Origin: Wenyingzhuangia heitensis
GTDB lineage: Bacteria > Bacteroidota > Bacteroidia > Flavobacteriales > Flavobacteriaceae
DNA: 64,000 bases
Direction: 5' to 3'
Assembly (NCBI RefSeq): GCF_011762155.1
Contig: NZ_JAASQL010000001.1
Span: 744,001 to 808,000 of the forward strand
Below, one piece after another: positions 44,564 through 54,651 of the stretch. Below the pieces are notes generated by a model. It did not search any database. It was not told where the DNA came from and was given only the letters and a program-made list of their open reading frames with translations. A program made the translations under genes and the position numbers. How positions within the stretch are numbered: the first letter of the stretch is position 1; every line of letters begins with the position of its first letter.

Positions 44564-45403
44564 ATGGCACTACAAAATATTAATACTTATAGTTATAAAG
44601 ATATTTTTTCTTTAAGTACCGTAAGCTTTGAAACTGCTTGTGTATTCAATCAGCCAGAACAGGTAGATACTTATAGTATTTATTGGATAAAAAAAGGAAG
44701 TGGTTTTTACAATATAGATTTTAAAAGATATGAGTTTAAAGATAATGTGTTGTTTTTTTTATCTCCAGGCCAAGTTTTTAATGTAGTATCTGAAAGTATA
44801 AAAGAAGCTTATAAAATTAGTTTTGTAAAAGATTTTTATTGCATTCAAACTCATGATAAAGCAGTAGCTTGTAATGGAGTTTTGTTTAATAATGTGTATG
44901 ATACACCTTATGTAAAGCCTTGTGAAAAAGATACACAGAAACTAAGTTTTATCTTAGAAAGCCTAGAAGAAGAGTTTCAAAAAAATGAGGTTGCACAATA
45001 TGATATGTTACAAGCTTATTTAAAACAATTTATTATACTATCTGTTAGAATTTTAAAAGAATTAACTCCTTTTAAAACCGATATAGAAACCAAGTTGTTT
45101 AAAGATTTTAGTTTACTTGTAGAGCAAAATTTTAAAAAAATGCATACGGTTTCTGAGTATGCAGAGCGTTTAGCTTTGTCTCCAAAATCATTGACTAAAA
45201 ATTTTAAGAGAGTAGGAGCAGAATCTCCAAGTGATTTTATAAAAAACAGAATTGTACTAGAAGCTAAACGTCAATTAATTTATACAGATGTACCTGTTAA
45301 AGAAATAGCGTATAATTTAGGGTATAATGATGCCGCTTATTTTACTCGCTTTTTTACCAAGGCAGAAAACAAATCACCCTTACAGTTTAGAAAAGAATAT
45401 TAA
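44564..45403 (+). CDS. AraC family transcriptional regulator
   Basis: A 279-residue regulator. The N-terminal part (about residues 20-110) looks like a cupin ligand domain (YSIYWIKKGSGFYNIDF; LFFLSPGQVFNV). The C-terminal 95 residues hold the two helix-turn-helix motifs of AraC proteins (SEYAERLALSPKSLTKNFKR and VKEIAYNLGYNDAAYFTRFF, ending SPLQFRKEY). The effector is unknown. It overlaps the convergent BASS gene by 4 bases. Nearby genes with the duplicated 58-bp upstream element are candidate targets. Confidence 0.9.
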   Translation: MALQNINTYSYKDIFSLSTVSFETACVFNQPEQVDTYSIYWIKKGSGFYNIDFKRYEFKDNVLFFLSPGQVFNVVSESIKEAYKISFVKDFYCIQTHDKAVACNGVLFNNVYDTPYVKPCEKDTQKLSFILESLEEEFQKNEVAQYDMLQAYLKQFIILSVRILKELTPFKTDIETKLFKDFSLLVEQNFKKMHTVSEYAERLALSPKSLTKNFKRVGAESPSDFIKNRIVLEAKRQLIYTDVPVKEIAYNLGYNDAAYFTRFFTKAENKSPLQFRKEY

Positions 45404-46278
45404 CGTAAAGAAGCTTTTGTTTTGTTACGTTTGTTAATAATCCACATTAAAAGTGCACCTGTTATATACATCCAAATAGAGTAAGCAGCAGTGGGAATAG
45501 CCATTTCTATGTTGTTTAATACAGTGGTTGCTACAACAATACCTAGTGTTGCATTCTGAATTCCTCCGTCTACCCCTACAGAAATAGAATCTTTATCTTC
45601 TAGATTGAATAATTTTGGAATTAAAAAACCAAAACCAATAATACTAAGGTTTAACACAAGGGTTACTAGTCCTACAGCTTTTAGAGCGCTACTTACTTTC
45701 TCAAAATTAGAAGCTATAAGACCTATCAATATAAGAGCAAATATAATAGTAGAAGCAATTTTCATTGGTTTTATCATTTTAGAAGCAAAGGTGGGTTTGT
45801 ATTTTAAAATTATCATACCTAAAGAAATAGGAATAATAGTGATGGTCGTAATTTGAAAAATAGTATGTGTAATTGGTAGTTGTATGTTAGACTCTGTTTG
45901 TGTGTTAAAATATGCTAGTGCAAAAGAAGTTAAAAGGTGGATAGATAAAATACCTGTAAAACTAGTAACGGCAGTTAATGTTACAGATAATGCTAAATTT
46001 CCGTTACATACTTGGGTGATAATGTTGCTGGTCGCCCCTCCTGGACAGGCTGCTAAAATAATAAGACCTACAGCTAATGTATCACTTAGGTTAAAAGCCA
46101 GAGCTAAAATAAAAGCAAGTAAGGGTAAAAGAATAATTTGATTAAAAAGACCAATAAGAACAGCTTTAGGTTGTTTAAAAATTAGGGTAAAATCTTTTAG
46201 AGTTAAAGACATTCCCATGCCTAACATAATAATAGAAAGAGATAAAGGTAAAAATACTTTTAGTAGTAAATCAGCCAT
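45400..46278 (-). CDS. Bile acid:sodium symporter (BASS) family transporter
   Basis: A 292-residue membrane protein with 9-10 hydrophobic helices. The sodium-site signature LIILAACPGGATSNIITQVC is near residues 72-91, and the second crossover region DSISVGVDGGIQNATLGIVVATTVL near 225-250. Bacterial members carry organic acids such as pantoate or keto acids as well as bile acids; the substrate here is not known. It is transcribed away from the AhpD-like gene from a promoter that abuts the duplicated element. Confidence 0.88.
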   Translation of the reverse strand: MADLLLKVFLPLSLSIIMLGMGMSLTLKDFTLIFKQPKAVLIGLFNQIILLPLLAFILALAFNLSDTLAVGLIILAACPGGATSNIITQVCNGNLALSVTLTAVTSFTGILSIHLLTSFALAYFNTQTESNIQLPITHTIFQITTITIIPISLGMIILKYKPTFASKMIKPMKIASTIIFALILIGLIASNFEKVSSALKAVGLVTLVLNLSIIGFGFLIPKLFNLEDKDSISVGVDGGIQNATLGIVVATTVLNNIEMAIPTAAYSIWMYITGALLMWIINKRNKTKASLR

Positions 46279-46311
46279 ATTGTAGAATATAATTAGGGGG
46301 TTATATTGTTA

Positions 46312-46342
46312 CAAACTTAAGTTTTTTAAGGGGGACAGCAAT
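46312..46342 (-). promoter_or_regulatory. Promoter of the BASS transporter gene
   Basis: On the minus strand, ATTG (46339-46342) is followed after 19 bases by TAAGTTTG (46312-46319): a full -7 match, one mismatch in -33, ideal spacing. It abuts the 58-bp duplicated element. Confidence 0.6.
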
Positions 46343-46399
46343 CCAAGTGCTAGGAACTTTTGTCCATTTTTATAGGAAGGTATCGGTTGCATCTTTGTA
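46342..46399 (+). promoter_or_regulatory. 58-bp duplicated upstream element, copy A
   Basis: It begins TCCAAGTGCTAGGAAC, has TTTGTCCATTTTT in the middle and ends GGTTGCATCTTTGTA. It matches copy B (47008-47065) at 51 of 58 positions without gaps by my count. CATCTTTG (46390-46397) is one base from the TAnnTTTG -7 consensus and lies 47 bases before the AhpD-like gene. The conserved left half is a good candidate operator. Confidence 0.75.
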
Positions 46400-46444
46400 G
46401 TGTCAATAAGACATAACAATATAACAACATAAAATATAAAAATT

Positions 46445-46993
46445 ATGAGCACAAAAATTAAAACATTAAATCCGGAAACAACAACAGGAGAAGCAAAAGA
46501 ATTATTTAATGCAGTAGAAAAAAAATTAGGGTTTATTCCTAATTTAATTAAAGTGTTTGGAAATTCTCCAGCTACATTAAAAAGTTATTTGTCTTTAGGT
46601 GAATTAACGGCAAGCGGAAACTTTAGTAATAAATTTAGAGAACAATTGGCTTTGGCAGTTGCAGAAGAAAACTCTTGTAATTACTGTTTGTCTGCACACA
46701 CAGCTATTGGTAAATTAAATGGGCTAAGTAAAGAACAAATAATTGATAGTAGAAAAGGGCAAGCAGAAGATATTAAACAACAAGCTGGTTTGCAGTTTGC
46801 ACAAGAAGTTACTGTTAAAAGAGGTGTTGTTTCTGTAGAGGCTTTACAGGCTGTAAAAGAAGCAGGTTATACTGATGAGGATATTTTAGAGATTGTATTA
46901 AATGTGGTGTCTAATACATTAACAAATTATGTGAATCATATTGCAGATACAGAAATTGATTTTCCTGTAGTAAAAGCTGGAGACTTAGTTTAA
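46445..46993 (+). CDS. Carboxymuconolactone decarboxylase / AhpD-like protein
   Basis: A 182-residue cytoplasmic protein of the CMD family. The AhpD-type redox motif is complete: Glu, then Cys78-x2-Cys81-x3-His85 (NSCNYCLSAHTAIG). This points to a thiol peroxidase or disulfide reductase activity rather than lactone decarboxylation. FIPNLIKVFGNSPATLKSYL precedes it. It shares its upstream region with the cupredoxin-like gene that follows, so they are probably coregulated though separately transcribed. Confidence 0.88.
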   Translation: MSTKIKTLNPETTTGEAKELFNAVEKKLGFIPNLIKVFGNSPATLKSYLSLGELTASGNFSNKFREQLALAVAEENSCNYCLSAHTAIGKLNGLSKEQIIDSRKGQAEDIKQQAGLQFAQEVTVKRGVVSVEALQAVKEAGYTDEDILEIVLNVVSNTLTNYVNHIADTEIDFPVVKAGDLV

Positions 46994-47007
46994 AAAAAAT
47001 CAAGATG

Positions 47008-47065
47008 TCCAAGTGCTAGGAACCTTTGTCCATTTTTAAAGAAGGGAGTCCGTTGCATCTTTGTA
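47008..47065 (+). promoter_or_regulatory. 58-bp duplicated upstream element, copy B
   Basis: It matches copy A at 46342-46399, with differences concentrated in positions 31-45. The CATCTTTG -7-like box is at 47056-47063, 39 bases before the ATG at 47103. The spacing of the element to each gene is similar (45 and 37 bases). Confidence 0.75.
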
Positions 47066-47102
47066 TCAGAATCAAAAATAAATCATTTAAAATAATTAGA
47101 AC

Positions 47103-47471
47103 ATGAAAAATTTAGTAGTAGGGTTGTTAGTTGTAGTAGGAGCTATATTTACAGCAAATGCGCAAAGTAAAGAAGTTAAAACAGTAGCTTTAGAGCAAAC
47201 AAAAGGAGAGTTTACTCAAAAATCAATTACCTTATCAGAAGGGACTTATGTATTTGAAATCGCAAATCACAAAGTAGGAAAAGATGTAGGTTTTGTATTG
47301 GCTCCTAAAGGAAAAACAGACGAGGCAAATCATATTAAAAATGCTTACGTTACTTCGCTTGTAAAAAACAACACAACAGGGCATTCTAAAGAGGTGAAAT
47401 TGGAAAAAGGAGAATATGTTTATTTCTGTCCTTTAAATCCAACTCCGCAATATACATTAGTAGTTAAGTAA
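47103..47471 (+). CDS. Exported cupredoxin-like protein lacking usual copper ligands
   Basis: A 122-residue protein with a signal peptide (residues 1-20, ending IFTANAQ). The rest has the beta-sandwich pattern of small cupredoxins, with EGTYVFEIANHKVGKDVGFV and KLEKGEYVYFCPLNPTPQYTLVV. One Cys is present at the place of the copper Cys, but the usual His and Met/His after it (C-x2-4-H-x2-4-M) are absent, and the upstream His before FVL is replaced. Copper binding is therefore doubtful. Expression is probably linked to the AhpD-like gene through the duplicated upstream element. Confidence 0.72.
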   Translation: MKNLVVGLLVVVGAIFTANAQSKEVKTVALEQTKGEFTQKSITLSEGTYVFEIANHKVGKDVGFVLAPKGKTDEANHIKNAYVTSLVKNNTTGHSKEVKLEKGEYVYFCPLNPTPQYTLVVK

Positions 47472-47493
47472 TTAGTTAGCTATGTTTAAGATG

Positions 47494-47532
47494 TAAAAAG
47501 CAGTAACAATTAATTTAGTTACTGCTTTTTTA
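47494..47532. terminator. Bidirectional terminator
   Basis: AAAAAGCAGTAAC and GTTACTGCTTTTTT form a 13-bp stem with a ten-base loop. It ends the cupredoxin-like gene and, in the other direction, the bufferin-like operon. Confidence 0.85.
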
Positions 47533-47539
47533 AATAAAG

Positions 47540-48259
47540 TTAGCTAGTGAATATTAGTTTTGTAGATGTAGCCTTATTTATAAAGTCTAAAAAAGCTGTT
47601 TCAATAATTTCATCTTGGGCATATTTTTTTAAAATTTCTTTAATCTGAATATCTGTTAATGGTTTTTTTGATAAACATTCAATTACGTCAACAAAAGGAA
47701 TAGAAAGGTTGGTAAATTGTACATTTCCTGTGTCTGGATCTCTATGCATACAAATAAAATAAGTTCCTTTGTCGTCTTTGGTTATTGTATTTGCATTTTT
47801 TAAATGGACAGGGTAATTTACCATCATCATATCCATTTCTGGATTTAACACATAGGTTTCAGGAGGTGCTTTATGGTGTGGAATGTCAGGCATCATAAAG
47901 ACTTCTACTTCTAACCACTCAAAGGTTAATAAGTTTTCTAAAAAAGGATATTGCTTCGTTAGTATAAGTTCAGTTTCTAGAATGTAGTTTTTAAATTCTT
48001 CTGGCATCATCCATATTTGTGGACTTTGTATGTTGTAGTAGCTAAAAAACCGATGCACCAATAATTCCCAATCTTTGGGGTCTAGTAATTTTTGAGTAAG
48101 CGGGTATGCTGTTTCTAAACTATCTAACACGTTGTTAAAAACCAAACGTCTGTAATGGGTTAAGTTTTTTTGTACAGCACCCTCTATAGTTACAGAATTT
48201 CCTGTTCTACAATAAGTGGCTAATTTACTTTGGTGTTGATGTGTTTTAGCTAGTAACAT
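47540..48259 (-). CDS. bufC: DUF2063 (HvfC/BufC-like) RiPP maturation partner
   Basis: A 239-residue protein. The N-terminal region (about residues 10-100) fits DUF2063: LATYCRTGN, then HYRRLVFNNVLDSLETAYPLTQKLL and WELLVHRFF, followed by PQIWMMPEEFKNYI and FLENLLTFEWLEVEVFMMPD. DUF2063 proteins are the standard partners of DUF692 enzymes and help present the precursor peptide, despite the older name of DNA-binding domain. The start overlaps the maturase gene by 14 bases, which supports a complex with it. It is the last gene of the operon. Confidence 0.85.
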   Translation of the reverse strand: MLLAKTHQHQSKLATYCRTGNSVTIEGAVQKNLTHYRRLVFNNVLDSLETAYPLTQKLLDPKDWELLVHRFFSYYNIQSPQIWMMPEEFKNYILETELILTKQYPFLENLLTFEWLEVEVFMMPDIPHHKAPPETYVLNPEMDMMMVNYPVHLKNANTITKDDKGTYFICMHRDPDTGNVQFTNLSIPFVDVIECLSKKPLTDIQIKEILKKYAQDEIIETAFLDFINKATSTKLIFTS

Positions 48260-49076
48260 GAGCTGTGTGTTTTAAACTATTTGTTTTAATATTTTGTAAC
48301 TGACTCATTTCTTGTTGTAAAATTTCCAATTCTGGAATGTTAAAATCACGTTCTAACAATACAGGTACATCTCTATCTAATTGTTGCATGGCAAAACCAA
48401 ATAAGTCGTAAACAGGGTCAATAATATTTTCTCCATGTGTGTCAATTATCAAATCTTCTGATACTTGAGTGTGACCTGCCATGTGTATGTATTTAACTCT
48501 TTCTAAATCTAAGTTTGCTAAAAACTCTTTAGCGTTGTACTGATGATTGAAACTATTTACATAAATATTGTTTACATCTAATAAAAGGTTGCAATCTGCT
48601 TCTTTAATAACGTTGTTAATAAACTCCAATTCTGTCATTTCTGCAGCAATAGGAGAGTAGTAACTCACTATTTCTATGGCAATTTTTCTTTCTAAAATAT
48701 CTTGAGCCAAAGCAATGTTTTTGGCAACGTGTTTTACCGCATCAGCAGTAAAAGGGATGGGTAACAAATCAAACAAATGGGCATTGTCACATTTAGAAAA
48801 ACTTAAATGTTCTGAATACTCCACGGTATTGGTATCGTCTAGAAATTTTTTGATTTGTTTTACAAAATCAACATCAATTCCTTCTGGACTTCCTACAGAT
48901 AAAGATAGGCCGTGAGCAAAAAGAGGATGTTTTTCCAAAGCTTTGTCCAAAAGCTTTTTATAATACCCACCAACATTCATCCAGTTTTCTGGAGCCACTT
49001 CTATAAAAGAAGGTGTTAAAACGTTGTTGCTTGCAAAATCTTCTGCAAAGTCTTTTCTGTATCCTATTCCTACCAT
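48246..49076 (-). CDS. bufB: DUF692 MNIO-type RiPP maturase (HvfB/BufB-like)
   Basis: A 276-residue multinuclear non-heme iron oxidase of the family that includes MbnB and TglH, which modify cysteines in ribosomal peptides. The TIM-barrel metal ligands appear intact: His55 (HGLSLSVG), His90 (SEHLS), Glu135, Asp167/Asn169 (LLLDVNNIYVNS), His198 and His202 (YIHMAGH), Asp212 and His214 (DTHG), and Glu242 (LERD). The usual ENxS motif reads EIVS, so the Asn after Glu135 is replaced by Ile. It lies 68 bases after the Cys-repeat precursor gene and overlaps the DUF2063 gene. The product chemistry (thiooxazole, thioamide or other) cannot be told from sequence. Confidence 0.92.
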   Translation of the reverse strand: MVGIGYRKDFAEDFASNNVLTPSFIEVAPENWMNVGGYYKKLLDKALEKHPLFAHGLSLSVGSPEGIDVDFVKQIKKFLDDTNTVEYSEHLSFSKCDNAHLFDLLPIPFTADAVKHVAKNIALAQDILERKIAIEIVSYYSPIAAEMTELEFINNVIKEADCNLLLDVNNIYVNSFNHQYNAKEFLANLDLERVKYIHMAGHTQVSEDLIIDTHGENIIDPVYDLFGFAMQQLDRDVPVLLERDFNIPELEILQQEMSQLQNIKTNSLKHTAHVTS

Positions 49077-49091
49077 ATTTTCTGATTTAAA

Positions 49092-49124
49092 ATAGATGAG
49101 TCAAAATTATTTTGACTCATCTAT
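49092..49124 (-). promoter_or_regulatory. 15-bp hairpin between precursor and maturase genes
   Basis: ATAGATGAGTCAAAA and its exact reverse complement flank a three-base loop, in the 68-base gap between the precursor stop and the maturase start. On the minus strand it is followed by only four T, so it looks like a leaky terminator or an mRNA-stabilising structure rather than a full stop. It would favour precursor over enzyme production. Confidence 0.65.
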
Positions 49125-49144
49125 AAAGTTATTAAGAGAGGTGC

Positions 49145-49570
49145 TTATTTTTTCTCACCACACTTTGCATCTTTCGCTTTTGCTTCACCACATTTAGCAT
49201 CCTTTGCTTTTGCCTCTCCGCACTTTGCGTCTTTCGCTTTTGCTTCTCCACATTTAGCATCCTTTGCTTTTGCCTCTCCGCACTTTGCATCTTTCGCTTT
49301 TGCTTCTCCACACTTTGCATCTTTGGTCTTTTTCTCACCACATTTAGCATCTGTAGTTTTCTTTTCGCCACAAGCTCCTTGAATAGATTTTAATCCATCA
49401 ACAGCAGAAGATAAAAGGTTTGTAGATGTTGATAATAATTGAGTACGTACTTGTCCTCCTGTTCCTAAATAGTCAACAGATAATGTTTTTGCAGTTGCAT
49501 CTGTAGTTGATACTAAAGCTCCTGCAACTAAGGTTCCTGTTAATAATGAATTCTTTGTGAAATTTTTCAT
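49145..49570 (-). CDS. bufA: Bufferin/HvfA-like RiPP precursor with eight Cys repeats
   Basis: A 141-residue exported precursor. A signal peptide-like N-terminus (MKNFTKNSLLTGTLVAGALVSTTDATA) is followed by a leader-like part (LSVDYLGTGGQVRTQLLSTS and a short helix). Then come eight cysteines at 67, 77, 87, 97, 107, 117, 127 and 137, exactly ten residues apart, in units AKCGEAKAKD with CGEKK at both ends. KCG motifs are the known modification sites of MNIO-type bufferins, which bind copper or other metals. The core is lysine-rich and has no other complex sequence. It lies 21 bases after the thioredoxin-like gene and ahead of bufB and bufC. Confidence 0.88.
   Translation of the reverse strand: MKNFTKNSLLTGTLVAGALVSTTDATAKTLSVDYLGTGGQVRTQLLSTSTNLLSSAVDGLKSIQGACGEKKTTDAKCGEKKTKDAKCGEAKAKDAKCGEAKAKDAKCGEAKAKDAKCGEAKAKDAKCGEAKAKDAKCGEKK
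49148..49372 (-). repeat. Tandem 30-bp repeats in the precursor core
   Basis: Coding repeats of 30 bp encode the ten-residue units. Two variant 30-mers alternate, so 49201-49260 and 49261-49320 are nearly identical 60-bp units, and 49141-49200 is a related third. This indicates recent growth by duplication of a two-repeat unit. Confidence 0.85.
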
Positions 49571-49591
49571 GTGATTTGATTTTAATGATTA

Positions 49592-51310
49592 TTAATTATT
49601 TTTATAAAATTCTTTTTTGAGTTCCTCCTCCGAGTATATGGGTGTTGAGCAGTAGTTTGATGTACAACTAAACAGTACGTTTTCTTTAAAACTTTTAATT
49701 AGGTTTTGCTTTTCAGTAGGCAACTCATTTAGTTTTCCTACATAAACAAGACTGTAAAAAGGAGTTATACTTTGTAAGTAATAATTGAAATGGTTTCCCT
49801 TTTCTGTGTTTAAATACACATATTGATTGGGCTCTGTTGCCAGCTCCTTTTGTAGCAATAACAAAGATGCTTCTGAGTAGTAATTTTTAGCTAAAACATC
49901 TGCCGTTAAAAATTTATAAGTGTGCTTAGCAATGTTGATGTATTCCTTATTATGGGTATAATGTCCATACCAATTAAAAATTCTAGCTAGACTAATATTT
50001 TCTTCCTTTAAAGGTTGTGTTGTTAATCCGTTATTCCCTGTAAAGCTTATAAAAGATCCGTTTTGTAGTAAAAACTTATTTTTTAGTTGTAAACACAAGG
50101 CTTTTAATTCTTGTTTGGCTTTGGTGTTGTTGATGTCGTTTTTAATAAGATTGATGAAGAAATGAGCCATTGCGATTTGATCTTTTAAACTACTAACAGT
50201 ACTCTGCTTACTTCCGTGTGTGTATAAACCATTTCTGTTTTTACGTTGGTACAAGCCGTTTTCTATCGTTTTAACCTTGTTTAAATATTTTTTGTTTTGA
50301 GTTCCGTTGTACATTCTTAACAAAGCGGAACCTATAGTTGCATTGTTGTCTGTAAACGTGTTCTTATCTATGTTAGGAATTCCTAACTTTCTTCTTTCAG
50401 TATTGTTTAAAGCAAAATATGCTCCTGCGTGTCTTCCTTGTATCAAATCTGCATCTTGCGCATTGCTGTACAATCCGTTTTTGTTAGCTAAAAATGTATC
50501 TATATAGTGAACAATGTTTTTTGCTTGTTTTAGCGAGTTTTCATCGTTGTAATAGGTGTAATGCTGTAAAAATATGTTGATATATCTGGCTTGAATAGAT
50601 AGCAGTTTTTCAAAATGAACATGTTCCCAATCGTTGTGTGTGGAGTACTGATACATACCTCCCCAAACAGGATCACTTAATTTTTTAGCTCCTTTTACAC
50701 TGTTTTTAATCCAAGTGTTTAGGGTTAGATTTTTACGATCTAACAAGGCTTTTTCAAACGTGGCATATTCAATATATTTTTGTGCTTGATTAAATCCGCC
50801 TACCTCAATATCTAAAGATTTTATAAAGTTGTTTTCTAAGGTTGCTACTAAATTATTATTTGTGTTTTTAGTATTATTGATGGTGGTTAAATCAACAGAT
50901 GTTTGTTCAGGAGATGGATCTTTAATAATGGCTTTTAACAATCTTAAAAAGTTTTCTGGAGCCATATATCCTGCTCTTTTTACCACATCTTCTCCTTTTG
51001 CATTGATAAAAATGGTTGCAGGCCATCCGTAATCTTTATACCTGTTAGATAATTCTGGATTTGCATCTTGGTCAGCCTCAACAGTAATAAAGTGCTTGTT
51101 TATATAAGTAACAACCTCCTGGTTTGTGTAAGTGTTGTTTTTCATTACGTGGCACCAATGACACCAGTTTGCTTTTAAGTTTAGTAAAATAATTTTATTT
51201 TCTGCTTTGGCTCTTGTAAAAGTTGCAGCATTTAACTCCTGCCATTCTATTGTGTTGACAAAAGAAATGTGAAAGATGAATAAGAATAAAATGGTACTAA
51301 AAACCTTCAT
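49592..51310 (-). CDS. Exported thioredoxin-fold protein with CHWCH motif and C-terminal helical domain
   Basis: A 572-residue protein with a signal peptide (residues 1-20). The thioredoxin-like domain (about 22-135) has CHWCH at 50-54 within NLKANWCHWCHVMKNNTYTN, the form seen in DUF255/YyaL-type proteins, and YGWPATIFINAKGED with the cis-Pro. The remaining 430 residues are helical with repeated aromatic and Asn-rich stretches (SKQSTVSSLKDQIAMAHFFI), resembling the six-hairpin-like C-terminal part of YyaL. It probably acts on thiols or disulfides outside the cytoplasm. A terminator separates it from the nitrilase gene upstream, and it is 21 bases ahead of the Cys-rich precursor gene, so it likely belongs to that operon. 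Confidence 0.82.
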   Translation of the reverse strand: MKVFSTILFLFIFHISFVNTIEWQELNAATFTRAKAENKIILLNLKANWCHWCHVMKNNTYTNQEVVTYINKHFITVEADQDANPELSNRYKDYGWPATIFINAKGEDVVKRAGYMAPENFLRLLKAIIKDPSPEQTSVDLTTINNTKNTNNNLVATLENNFIKSLDIEVGGFNQAQKYIEYATFEKALLDRKNLTLNTWIKNSVKGAKKLSDPVWGGMYQYSTHNDWEHVHFEKLLSIQARYINIFLQHYTYYNDENSLKQAKNIVHYIDTFLANKNGLYSNAQDADLIQGRHAGAYFALNNTERRKLGIPNIDKNTFTDNNATIGSALLRMYNGTQNKKYLNKVKTIENGLYQRKNRNGLYTHGSKQSTVSSLKDQIAMAHFFINLIKNDINNTKAKQELKALCLQLKNKFLLQNGSFISFTGNNGLTTQPLKEENISLARIFNWYGHYTHNKEYINIAKHTYKFLTADVLAKNYYSEASLLLLQKELATEPNQYVYLNTEKGNHFNYYLQSITPFYSLVYVGKLNELPTEKQNLIKSFKENVLFSCTSNYCSTPIYSEEELKKEFYKNN

Positions 51311-51378
51311 GGTGATTCCGTTTGCAATATCTACGAGAAAGAAATCAAGATGGTTTTGTTTTTTAAAAAAATATAGAA

Positions 51379-51411
51379 TAAAAAAATCCGATAATTGTGA
51401 AATTATCGGAT
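51379..51411 (-). terminator. Terminator after the GNAT-nitrilase gene
   Basis: ATCCGATAATT and AATTATCGGAT form an 11-bp stem with a four-base loop. On the minus strand it is followed by seven T (51379-51386), so it ends the leftward GNAT-nitrilase transcript and isolates the bufferin-like operon. Confidence 0.85.
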
Positions 51412-51451
51412 GAGTTATTGTAATACAGTGTTTTATGGTTGTTTGTCTTTT

Positions 51452-52978
51452 TTATTTTCTTTTCAATTCATACACATCTGTTCTTCTATCTTTTAAGTTT
51501 CTAACACTACCATGTTGATTTAGTTCCTTTAAAAGGCTCAAATCTACATCTGCAATTAAAATCATTTCTGTGTTAGGAGTGGCTTCTGCTTTAATTCCAT
51601 TGCTAGGAAAAGCAAAATCACAAGGAGTAAACACCATAGATTGTGCGTATTGAATGTCCATGTTTTCTACATTAGGCAAGTTTCCTACACTACCCGCAAT
51701 GGCAACGTAACATTCGTTTTCTATAGCTCTTGCTTGGGCACAATGTCTTACTCTAGAATATCCGTTTTGAGTATCTGTTAAGAAAGGAACAAATAAAATA
51801 TCCATTCCGTCATCGGCTAATATTCTGCTTAATTCTGGAAATTCAGAATCGTAACAAATCAAAACTCCAACTTTACCACAATCGGTATCAAAGGTTTGTA
51901 TTTTGTTTCCTCCTTGCATTCCCCAAACTTTTTCTTCATCTGGAGTTACGTGTATTTTTTCGTAACGTTCTATAGATCCATCACGTTTGCATAAATATCC
52001 AACATTGTACAATTTCTCGTCTCTAATTTCGGGCATACTACCCGTAATAATATTAATGTTGTAAGAAATAGACAATTCAGAAAATTTTTGAACAATTTCT
52101 TTGGTATGCTTAGCTAGTTCTCTAATAGCTTTAGCAACAGGTAAGTGATTGTTGCCTGCCATTAAAGGAGCGTTAAAAAATTCTGGAAACAAAGCAAAGT
52201 CCGAACGATATCCCGAAACAGCATCTATAAAATATTCAGCTTGTTTCATCATATCATCTAAACTATCATAAGGTCTCATTTGCCATTGGATCAATCCAAT
52301 TCTAACAACTTCTTTGTTTTGAGTTGCAATTTTTTTAGGTTTTTGGTAGTAAATATTGTCCCATTCTAACAATACAGCAAAGTCGTTAGAACCTGCATCT
52401 CCCTCTAAATATCCTTTGATAATTTTAGAAGGATGAAAATCATTAGAAATCTGAAAGTTCAACACAGGATCGTGAATTTCTTTCATTTTTACTTTTTCTA
52501 TATAAGCCTTAGGGCTTAATTTGTCAGCATATTTATGGTAATTGGGAATTCTACCTCCAAAAGCAATTCCTTTTAAGTTTAAGTTTTCACACAATTCTTT
52601 TCGGTAATCATACAAACGTCTCCCCAAACGTAAACCTCTAAATTCAGGTCTAATAAACACCTCAATACCATACAACATATCCCCTTTGTTGGTGTGGGAG
52701 TTAAACGTATAGTCTTCTGTAATTTCGCTGTATGTATGGTCGTCAGAAAACGTTTCGTAATCCACAATAATAGACAATGCACAACCTGCAATGTGTCCAT
52801 TTACTTTAATTACAACCTGTCCTTCTTTAAATTTACTGATTAGTGTTTTTATATGGTGTTCATCCCAATAAGAGTTTTCAAGATCATGATAAACTTCTAT
52901 CATGGCTTGTTTTAATTCTTGATAATCTTTAATATCAAGATATTTTAATTCAATAGTGTCTATTTCTTTAATGTCCAT
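51452..52978 (-). CDS. GNAT acetyltransferase / carbon-nitrogen hydrolase fusion protein
   Basis: A 508-residue two-domain protein. Residues about 10-160 form a GNAT domain (FIRPEFRGLRLGRRLYDYRKE is the acetyl-CoA loop). Residues about 225-500 form a nitrilase-type amidohydrolase with the catalytic triad Glu in LFPEFFNAP, Lys in ERYEKIHVTPDEE and Cys in VGVLICYDSEFPEL. The fusion is known as a bifunctional family in many bacteria. The substrate is unknown. It is monocistronic, divergent from rpoN, with its own terminator. Confidence 0.93.
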   Translation of the reverse strand: MDIKEIDTIELKYLDIKDYQELKQAMIEVYHDLENSYWDEHHIKTLISKFKEGQVVIKVNGHIAGCALSIIVDYETFSDDHTYSEITEDYTFNSHTNKGDMLYGIEVFIRPEFRGLRLGRRLYDYRKELCENLNLKGIAFGGRIPNYHKYADKLSPKAYIEKVKMKEIHDPVLNFQISNDFHPSKIIKGYLEGDAGSNDFAVLLEWDNIYYQKPKKIATQNKEVVRIGLIQWQMRPYDSLDDMMKQAEYFIDAVSGYRSDFALFPEFFNAPLMAGNNHLPVAKAIRELAKHTKEIVQKFSELSISYNINIITGSMPEIRDEKLYNVGYLCKRDGSIERYEKIHVTPDEEKVWGMQGGNKIQTFDTDCGKVGVLICYDSEFPELSRILADDGMDILFVPFLTDTQNGYSRVRHCAQARAIENECYVAIAGSVGNLPNVENMDIQYAQSMVFTPCDFAFPSNGIKAEATPNTEMILIADVDLSLLKELNQHGSVRNLKDRRTDVYELKRK

Positions 52979-53196
52979 TTGTTAAATATACAATTCCATA
53001 AGCCTTAGGTGGCTAAGTGGAATTTCTTGATTAAAAGTAATTAATTTTTTGATGATTTTATCAATAAAAATAAAAATGTGGAAGAATATAGGAAAATATT
53101 TTTTAATTCGGCATAAAATTTGATTAGTGGATTGCTTGTTTCTAACAAATACTTTACTTACCTTAGTTTTATAGGTTATAAGAACACCCAATTCAG

Positions 53197-54651
53197 ATGC
53201 TAAAACAAAGCTTAAATTTAAAATTATCTCAAAAATTATCTCCTCAACAAATTCAGTTGATGAAAATGATTCAATTGCCTACTCAAGCTTTTGAACAGAG
53301 ACTAAAACAAGAGATTGAAGAAAATCCTGCTTTAGAGTCTGGAAAAGAAAAAGAAGAGGATTACGAAGATTCTTATGATGATTATGCAGAAGAAGGAAAT
53401 GAATCTATTTCTGCCGATGATATTAATATAGATGAGTATTTAAGCGATGATGACATTCCTAGTTATAAACTGCAAGCCAATAATTATTCTGCCGATGATG
53501 AGGATAGAGATGTACCTTATGCAGGAGGATTAAGTTTTCACCAGTCGTTAATCAATCAGCTAAATACCTTTACGCTTTCTGATGAAGAGTATGCAATTGC
53601 AGAATTTTTAGTAGGAAGTATTAATGACAATGGATATTTAAGAAGAGAAACCTTAGATATTGTTGATGATTTAGCATTTACCCAAAATATTTTTACAGAA
53701 GAAGGTAAAGTAGAAGATATTTTATATGATGTGGTTCAGAAATTAGAACCCTTAGGAGTTGGAGCAAGAGATTTAAAAGAATGTTTAATTATTCAGCTAG
53801 AAGGAAAAAGACCAACTAGAGCTGTAGAATTGGCTATTCAAATATTAGATCAGGCATTTGACCCTTTTGTGAAAAAACACTACGAAAAGTTATTGCATAA
53901 GTTTGAAATTACACAAGACGAACTTAAAGAAGCAATTAAAGAAATAGAAAAATTAAACCCTAAACCCGGAAGTTCTATTGTAGGAAATTCTAAAATTGTA
54001 GAACAAATTGTTCCTGATTTTACCATTAGAGTTGCTGATGGGGAGGTAGAGTTGTTGTTAAATTCTAGAAATGCACCGGAACTGCATGTTTCTAGGGAAT
54101 ATAATAACATGTTAAAAGGATATCAAGAGGCAAAAACAAAAACCAAATCTCAAAAAGATGCTGTTTTGTTTATCAAGCAAAAGTTAGATTCTGCCAAATG
54201 GTTTATAGATGCTATTAAACAAAGGCAACAGACTTTAATGGTAACAATGAGTTGTATTATAGACATCCAAAGAGAATACTTGTTAACAGGGGATGAAAGC
54301 AAGTTAAGACCCATGATTTTAAAAGATGTTGCCGAGAAAATTAACATGGACATTTCTACAGTGTCTCGTGTTGCCAATAGTAAATATGCATCTACACCTT
54401 ACGGAACTAAGTTGGTGAAAGAGTTTTTCTCAGAGTCAATGAAAAATGATCAGGGAGAAGATGTTTCTACAAGAGAAATTAAAAGTATTTTAAAAACAGT
54501 GGTGGCAGAAGAGGATAAGAAAAAACCGTTAACAGACGATAAATTATCGGCACATTTGAAAGAAAAAGGTTATTTAATAGCGCGTAGAACAGTCGCTAAA
54601 TATAGAGAGCAATTAGATATTCCGGTTGCCCGATTAAGAAAAGAAATGTAA
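53197..54651 (+). CDS. rpoN: RNA polymerase sigma-54 factor
   Basis: A 484-residue sigma-54. Region I is MLKQSLNLKLSQKLSPQQIQ with the Gln-rich start, an acidic region II follows (residues 50-85), then the core-binding domain. The C-terminal RpoN box ARRTVAKYRE (about residues 463-472) recognises the -24 promoter element. Transcription with this factor needs an AAA+ activator; none is encoded in this window. It is followed by a membrane protein gene after two bases. Confidence 0.97.
   Translation: MLKQSLNLKLSQKLSPQQIQLMKMIQLPTQAFEQRLKQEIEENPALESGKEKEEDYEDSYDDYAEEGNESISADDINIDEYLSDDDIPSYKLQANNYSADDEDRDVPYAGGLSFHQSLINQLNTFTLSDEEYAIAEFLVGSINDNGYLRRETLDIVDDLAFTQNIFTEEGKVEDILYDVVQKLEPLGVGARDLKECLIIQLEGKRPTRAVELAIQILDQAFDPFVKKHYEKLLHKFEITQDELKEAIKEIEKLNPKPGSSIVGNSKIVEQIVPDFTIRVADGEVELLLNSRNAPELHVSREYNNMLKGYQEAKTKTKSQKDAVLFIKQKLDSAKWFIDAIKQRQQTLMVTMSCIIDIQREYLLTGDESKLRPMILKDVAEKINMDISTVSRVANSKYASTPYGTKLVKEFFSESMKNDQGEDVSTREIKSILKTVVAEEDKKKPLTDDKLSAHLKEKGYLIARRTVAKYREQLDIPVARLRKEM

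Follow-up and report, generated by a model that had tools for sequence, protein, structure and literature searches.

Within a 64,000-nucleotide stretch of the Wenyingzhuangia heitensis genome (contig NZ_JAASQL010000001.1, positions 744,001 to 808,000; hereafter the window), a minus-strand operon encodes a thioredoxin/toroid-like protein, a cysteine-containing precursor, a multinuclear non-heme iron-dependent oxidative enzyme (MNIO, DUF692) and a DUF2063 protein (Table 1). Judged by sequence, the operon belongs with the HvfA/oxazolin operons (Buf_EGKCG; captophorin), from which its core deviates, and is not a bufferin operon. We consider it probable that it makes a metallophore of the HvfA/oxazolin (captophorin) type, the thiols of which would be kept reduced by the thioredoxin/toroid-like protein. 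The gene for this protein, the first of the operon, is its most unusual part. The original prediction described a bufferin-like operon for a ribosomally synthesized and post-translationally modified peptide. A peptide operon of this kind, with an MNIO, a DUF2063 partner, cysteines in KCG motifs and a product that is likely exported and metal-binding, was indeed recovered, while the bufferin label did not hold and the gene for the 572-residue thioredoxin/toroid-like protein, lying within the same span, had not been discussed. In keeping with a Bacteroidota host, RpoN encoded in the window had its best matches in a plasmid collection among Parabacteroides, Phocaeicola, Bacteroides and Prevotella.

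The family assignment rests on the maturase and the precursor. The predicted arrangement of an MNIO gene followed by an overlapping DUF2063 gene was confirmed, with matches to PF05114 (314 bits) and PF09836 (55.2 bits, cut-off 27.2) and a 14-base overlap. Among NCBIfam models, the MNIO passed that for HvfB (NF003818, 374.8 bits, cut-off 360) and failed that for BufB (262.4 bits, cut-off 310). The search of the precursor against HvfA- and DUF2282-type families, proposed along with the original prediction, returned the HvfA-repeat domain (NF050137, 27.9 bits, cut-off 19.5) and no Pfam family at E 0.01, so no DUF2282; the score for the HvfA equivalog was below threshold (NF050188, 10.5 bits, cut-off 95). 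NF050137 was also passed by 10/10 other precursors scanned, congeners included, although by one gammaproteobacterial sequence (L110) only barely (19.6 against 19.5). The label "bufferin-like" was dropped on these scores. Bufferin 1 was rejected on the missing DUF2282 match and the BufB score, and bufferin 2 because Cys is followed by Gly at 8/8 sites, with no Cys-Lys motif, and because Phe245 of the enzyme stands where Cys-Lys enzymes have Asp.

Residues of the enzyme point the same way. R7, K8, D244 and F245 of the MNIO align with R15, R16, D249 and F250 of FonB. In PMC12668002, the Phe and Arg at the F250, R15 and R16 positions are described as conserved in MNIOs of Lys-Cys captophorins, D249 is the base, and Cys-Lys type MNIOs carry Asp at the F250 position. 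The nearest solved relatives by sequence were PDB 3bww for the MNIO (E 1.9e-67) and PDB 3dee for the DUF2063 partner (E 1.3e-7). A genome search found a single MNIO, that of the operon, adjoining the precursor.

The first gene encodes a DUF255-type thioredoxin domain with the site CHWCHVM (PF03190, 86.1 bits, cut-off 27); its signal sequence was judged by eye only. The remainder of the protein is toroid-like, as a profile of 7 homologues matched PDB 7tkv (E 2.3e-31) and had a weak match to GH76 mannanases (E 7.7e-6 at best). C50, H51, W52 and C53, together with C549 and C554, were invariant in 7/7 homologues. The gene ends 21 bases from the precursor, which is separated from the MNIO gene by 68 bases. 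The order thioredoxin, A, B, C is shared by the window's genome (G000) and three congeners that have the operon (G001, G002 and G003), where the homologue at the same place is 69-70% identical; congeners are other genomes of the genus, and genus, order and phylum denote kinship labels of the sample. In G055, from another family, the thioredoxin gene likewise lies ahead of the precursor. A 131-residue protein with no Pfam match (L205:8186-8581) is encoded between the two genes in that genome.

This compact, full-length protein is associated with HvfB genomes. It was found in 4/395 genomes of the order (1291, 364, 307 and 275 bits; next best 102), all four among the ten with HvfB over cut-off, while 18/395 had an MNIO at E 1e-40. 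Within the genus, the gene was present in the four genomes with HvfB and missing from the three without, one of which is 85% complete. In the phylum sample (n = 395, E 1e-40), it occurred in the window's genome only; HvfB-type MNIOs were found there in eight genomes at E 1e-80 and over cut-off in seven. Nineteen HvfB genomes were then compared, comprising four of the genus, nine others of the order and six of the phylum sample, G434 being under the HvfB cut-off. Seven had the compact gene, and the remaining 12 reached E 5e-25 at best.

In the genomes read, the compact gene and operon DoxX were mutually exclusive. A DoxX gene followed HvfC in 0/7 genomes with the compact gene versus 10/12 without it (Fisher p = 0.0007 by genome); five of the DoxX calls came from Pfam, and the other five from BLAST matches at 55-61% identity to three of the Pfam-called proteins. 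As originally predicted, no DoxX-type gene lies beside the operon in the window, the genome having three elsewhere. We infer that the compact thioredoxin/toroid-like protein keeps thiooxazole thiols reduced. HvfX/DoxX is described as uncharacterized in PMC13419390, so an equal function of the two proteins can only be proposed. Among the open-licence papers listed for this subject, none was seen to link a thioredoxin gene with these operons: the word "thioredoxin" had no occurrence in PMC12452194, PMC12668002, PMC13419390, PMC12636315 and PMC12538549, and the passages with both kinds of word in PMC8776678, PMC8224329, PMC3511200 and PMC12509749 did not make the connection.

The precursor is as regular as had been claimed. 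Its 141 residues contain cysteines at positions 67, 77, 87, 97, 107, 117, 127 and 137, in CGEAK motifs in units 3-7 (five) and CGEKK motifs in units 1, 2 and 8 (three). The signal sequence, MKNFTKNSLLTGTLVAGALVSTTDATA, was read by eye only. Seven sites are AKCG and the first is GACG, so that the eight modified sites of the earlier proposal are an upper guess. Tandem Repeats Finder reported a 30-base repeat in the gene (score 241, far above chance), and a 60-base higher-order repeat with 92% matches was also present. Cysteine numbers were 8 in the window's genome and 9, 7 and 8 in G001, G002 and G003, always at a spacing of ten. Among 24 full units fitting AKCGExKxKD from these four genomes, synonymous differences amounted to 0.749 per site versus 0.019 for non-synonymous differences, with all pairs pooled and hence not independent. 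The far divergence of silent sites, with the protein sequence of the unit kept, argues for selection on the protein rather than mere recent slippage. DNA slippage was accordingly rejected as the source of the repeat, on a contrast of pooled pairs.

A difference between this core and the usual EGKCG clusters had been noted in the original prediction. The difference is real, with EGKCG at 0/8 sites and all spacings equal to ten, but the spacing is not unique. Precursors were read at 17/19 of the Bacteroidota HvfB loci, none being recognized beside the MNIO of G434 and G525. At least one pair of CG sites five residues apart (CGxxxCG) was found in 13/13 precursors outside the genus and in 0/4 within it. 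The leader motif LGxGx[EDQ]xR is shared by the window precursor and 10/13 other Bacteroidota precursors, and is not found in G040, G242 and G353. One genome from each of 84,980 species was scanned for five CG sites at ten-codon spacing, which gave at least 120 stretches, read by eye. Among the 120 matches listed, three were HvfA-like, from a Woeseia metagenome-assembled genome (MAG; L016), a Thiomargarita MAG (L098) and a gammaproteobacterial MAG (L110), and uniqueness of the spacing is refuted by these three. An EGKCGEGKCG pair still closes all three precursors, and the leader motif is missing from each. With the MNIO as query, tblastn on the 120 listed stretches matched only at L098 and L110. 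In an MNIO tree of 15 rows (L098 partial, and no gammaproteobacterial HvfB with paired sites included), these two enzymes split from those of Bacteroidota with full support. This suggests that ten-residue cores likely arose separately in Gammaproteobacteria and Bacteroidota.

Several further precursors were seen in these searches. Lys before Cys is not universal, as KCG accounts for 4/16 CG sites of L110. In the G273 precursor (L161:6992-7423), KCG occurs at 0/9 sites, all nine being TCG or SCG, and the enzyme retains D-F. The Woeseia sequence (L016:5560-6027) runs through seven steps of ten residues, each resembling GEGSCGGDKG; since the 8 kb read around it showed no MNIO, it counts as an orphan precursor. 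In another genus of the order (g51), six genomes (L142-L147, e.g. about L142:891-1478) have weaker MNIOs, scoring 255-260 bits on the HvfB model; beside them lies a Cys-rich protein of 192-195 residues (CMGLNSCKNAG...) with no evident signal sequence, a different precursor type. A short frame near an HvfB locus (L225:10476-10736) has a 12-residue unit every 21-22 residues and may be read out from an array of clustered regularly interspaced short palindromic repeats (CRISPR).

These data are consistent with the following scheme. HvfC (DUF2063) would hold the precursor leader around LGTGGQVRTQLL and present the AKCGE units one after another to HvfB. The latter, an iron enzyme, would convert each Lys-Cys to a 5-thiooxazole with a free thiol at about -4 Da each, for an expected mass change of -28 Da if the seven KCG sites react, and of -32 Da if the first ACG does as well. 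Sec would carry the peptide out as an evenly spaced series of soft Cu(I) ligands, and the exported thioredoxin/toroid-like protein would keep the thiols reduced and copper-competent, in the place that DoxX (HvfX) holds in other operons. A hairpin between the precursor and enzyme genes would permit more precursor than enzyme. Modification, export and copper binding of the precursor are predictions, and copper as the metal is likely by analogy. PMC12538549 reports that bulbicupramide, a tryptic 12-mer, was obtained in disulfide form and that its reduced form binds Cu(I). Disulfide formation is a problem to which a reductase exported from the same operon would be an answer. Oxidized HvfA was unreactive with HvfBC according to PMC13419390.

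A bolder version may be put forward tentatively, and we would not yet favor it: a Bacteroidota sub-type of captophorin operon may have replaced DoxX by a thioredoxin/toroid reductase dedicated to the peptide in the periplasm. The toroid would bind the peptide once it is modified, and disulfides between thiooxazole thiols would be undone at the thioredoxin site. The core, freed from paired sites, might then have become a periodic polymer of single sites ten residues apart, an architecture that would have had a separate origin in Gammaproteobacteria. The scheme bears on how the thiols of thiooxazole peptides are kept reduced, and able to bind copper, in the oxidizing periplasm, and on the role of DoxX: if a thioredoxin can replace DoxX, the two would both act on the redox state of these thiols. 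A core of single sites at ten-residue intervals also offers a natural substrate for the site-distance limits of an MNIO and for the number of Cu(I) per chain.

Several observations weigh against a reductase-protected metallophore. The exclusion of the compact gene and operon DoxX reaches only p = 0.06 when counted by genus, and one genome counted as lacking the compact gene, G065, is 68% complete. G042 and G525 do without either gene, which indicates that neither is indispensable. The thioredoxin gene of G078 and G273 lies on a different contig from the MNIO, with other neighbors. The second FonB Arg (R16) is Lys (K8) in the window enzyme, and the DUF2063 partner is below cut-off for HvfC (NF050145, 102.7 bits, cut-off 142). 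The window precursor has no CGxxxCG pair, and its AlphaFold2 model, from a 4-row alignment, gave a mean predicted local distance difference test score (pLDDT) of 36.3 and no secondary structure. According to PMC12668002, a shortened substrate was modified by FonBC when it had two EGKCG repeats and not when it had one, so that isolated sites ten residues apart may be poor substrates. PMC12538549 reports that Microbulbifer mmr proteins escaped detection whether copper was added or not, and that they gave Escherichia coli slight protection.

The first gene may, alternatively, be merely co-transcribed and have another job, such as disulfide formation or general envelope reduction. The separate location in G078 and G273 would fit, as would the abundance of the wider DUF255/thioredoxin family, present in 160/395 order genomes at E 1e-15; among the matches listed of these 160, most were longer, at about 700 residues, or had the thioredoxin part only. 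The compact type, however, occurred only in HvfB genomes of the samples searched (4/395 in the order; 1/395 in the phylum, the window's own), and its presence or absence matched that of HvfB in all seven genomes of the genus. A separate job is possible, if on the whole unlikely.

The product might instead buffer oxidants or envelope redox state, copper being incidental and the thioredoxin a functional partner that recharges the peptide. This would suit an operon led by a thioredoxin gene that co-occurs with HvfB, the sigma-70 region 2 protein of ECF-like size (ECF, extracytoplasmic function) at the three related loci tested, and the failure to detect the Microbulbifer homologues under copper (PMC12538549). 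Yet the same source reports binding of Cu(I) by bulbicupramide, with no appreciable binding of Fe, Ni, Zn or Mn, and for bufferins PMC12452194 reports copper growth effects, leaving redox buffering as an outside candidate. Much less probable is an unmodified, exported Lys/Cys-rich repeat protein resembling a metallothionein, with the MNIO acting elsewhere: cysteines in simple regular repeats, with no predicted fold or paired motif, would allow it, but the leader motif recurs in other leaders of HvfA type, the single MNIO found in the genome lies next to the precursor and gene order is conserved. That the strict repeat is a functionally meaningless by-product of recent tandem duplication, as the 60-base repeat and the variation from 7 to 9 units might imply, is very hard to reconcile with the synonymous to non-synonymous contrast and with constant spacing in four genomes. 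A true bufferin operon, of Buf1/DUF2282 or six-Cys Buf2 type, is equally improbable: it would have the same A-B-C order and the BufB model still scores 262 bits, but that is under 310, DUF2282 is missing, Cys precedes Gly and not Lys, and Phe245 replaces the Asp of Cys-Lys enzymes (PMC12668002). The metallophore with thiols kept reduced by the thioredoxin/toroid-like protein is the reading that we retain as probable.

Table 1. Genes and putative expression signals of the operon, in window coordinates
Feature	Position	Strand	Details
Thioredoxin/toroid-like gene, first of operon	49592-51310	minus	572 aa
HvfA-type precursor gene	49145-49570	minus	141 aa; leader holds LGTGGQVRTQLL, then eight 10-residue units, one Cys each
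HvfB-type MNIO (DUF692) maturase gene	48246-49076	minus	276 aa
HvfC-like DUF2063 partner gene	47540-48259	minus	239 aa
RNA hairpin in precursor/MNIO spacer	49092-49124	minus	16-nt perfect inverted repeat
Terminator-like hairpin after preceding gene	51386-51411	minus	11 pairs, then T run
AAACC-N16-CGTAGA block ahead of first gene	51330-51356	minus	candidate promoter or operator

Conserved elements were also found in the non-coding parts of the operon. The hairpin between the precursor and MNIO genes, with a folding energy of -18.8 kcal/mol (z -4.5), recurs in the three congeners that have the operon. Four of its 14 pairs are changed on both sides, and 92.9% of cells are paired versus 30-48% when slid; with four sequences, mostly separated by one split, there are few independent covariation events. 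It was not among the sites given by the terminator-like scan, so its likely role as a transcript-processing or partial-termination element is a proposal. The hairpin after the preceding gene likely marks the upstream limit of the operon, in a scan that gave six such sites in 4.2 kb versus 1.9 in shuffles. At gathering scores, Rfam returned nothing within 45000-54000.

Across the window and three congeners, the alignment shows conservation of the AAACC-N16-CGTAGA block and most of its spacer; the block presumably resembles promoters of ECF sigma factors such as sigma-W. It matched once at the operon in each of the four genomes, and once more elsewhere in G001. Single matches also occurred in G004 and G006, which have no operon, and the reversed control gave 1-3 matches in the four genomes. 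A regulon defined by this block was rejected, since two operon-less genomes have matches and the control was as frequent or more; the genome counts do not single the block out, and only its local conservation counts. A sigma-70 region 2 protein of ECF-like size accompanies the precursor in G042, G055 and G078 (3/3 tested), and a Caulobacter sigma-F regulon includes DUF2282, DUF692, DUF2063 and DoxX genes (PMC3511200). Both fit with an envelope-stress-type promoter.

Two neighboring genes were noted. An exported-looking, cupredoxin-like protein (47103-47471, plus strand; PF13473, 26.5 bits, just under the cut-off of 27) converges on the operon; it was rejected as part of the system, with no homologue at the congener loci read. 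In three congeners, a gene of the bile-acid/Na symporter family directly precedes the thioredoxin gene, whereas its homologue in the window (45400-46278, minus strand) is found beyond the opposite end of the operon.

The closest known system is the Haemophilus influenzae hvf operon (HvfA, HvfB, HvfC and HvfX), which makes oxazolin. It shares with the window an exported-type precursor with repeated KCG, an HvfB-type MNIO, a DUF2063 protein and the A-B-C order. It differs in having EGKCG clusters where the window has single AKCGE sites every ten residues; the window, in turn, has no DoxX-type HvfX beside the operon, a thioredoxin/toroid-like gene in first place and an HvfC below the NCBIfam cut-off. 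The captophorins fontiphorin (FonABC), gonophorin and bulbicupramide (MmrABC) have the same pair of MNIO and DUF2063 (PME1), the Lys-Cys enzyme residues and a variable number of core units, with 5-8 Cys in Microbulbifer (PMC12538549). Their cores use EGKCG, with Cys five residues apart in fontiphorin and bulbicupramide, versus 0/8 EGKCG in the window. Bufferins 1 and 2 are alike in MNIO superfamily, DUF2063 partner, a precursor that in the window looks exported by eye, and gene order; the window differs from them in lacking DUF2282 and the Cys-Lys motif and in an MNIO below the BufB cut-off. The 572-residue protein resembles the DUF255 (YyaL/SSP411) thioredoxin-toroid proteins in its CHWCHVM site and toroid-like remainder. 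It differs from them in its compact size (560-578 residues for this type versus about 700), in a signal sequence seen by eye, and in its confinement to HvfB genomes of the samples searched. The operon is a variant within the known HvfA/oxazolin kind, unusual in its ten-residue, single-Cys core and in a thioredoxin-like gene where DoxX is usual.

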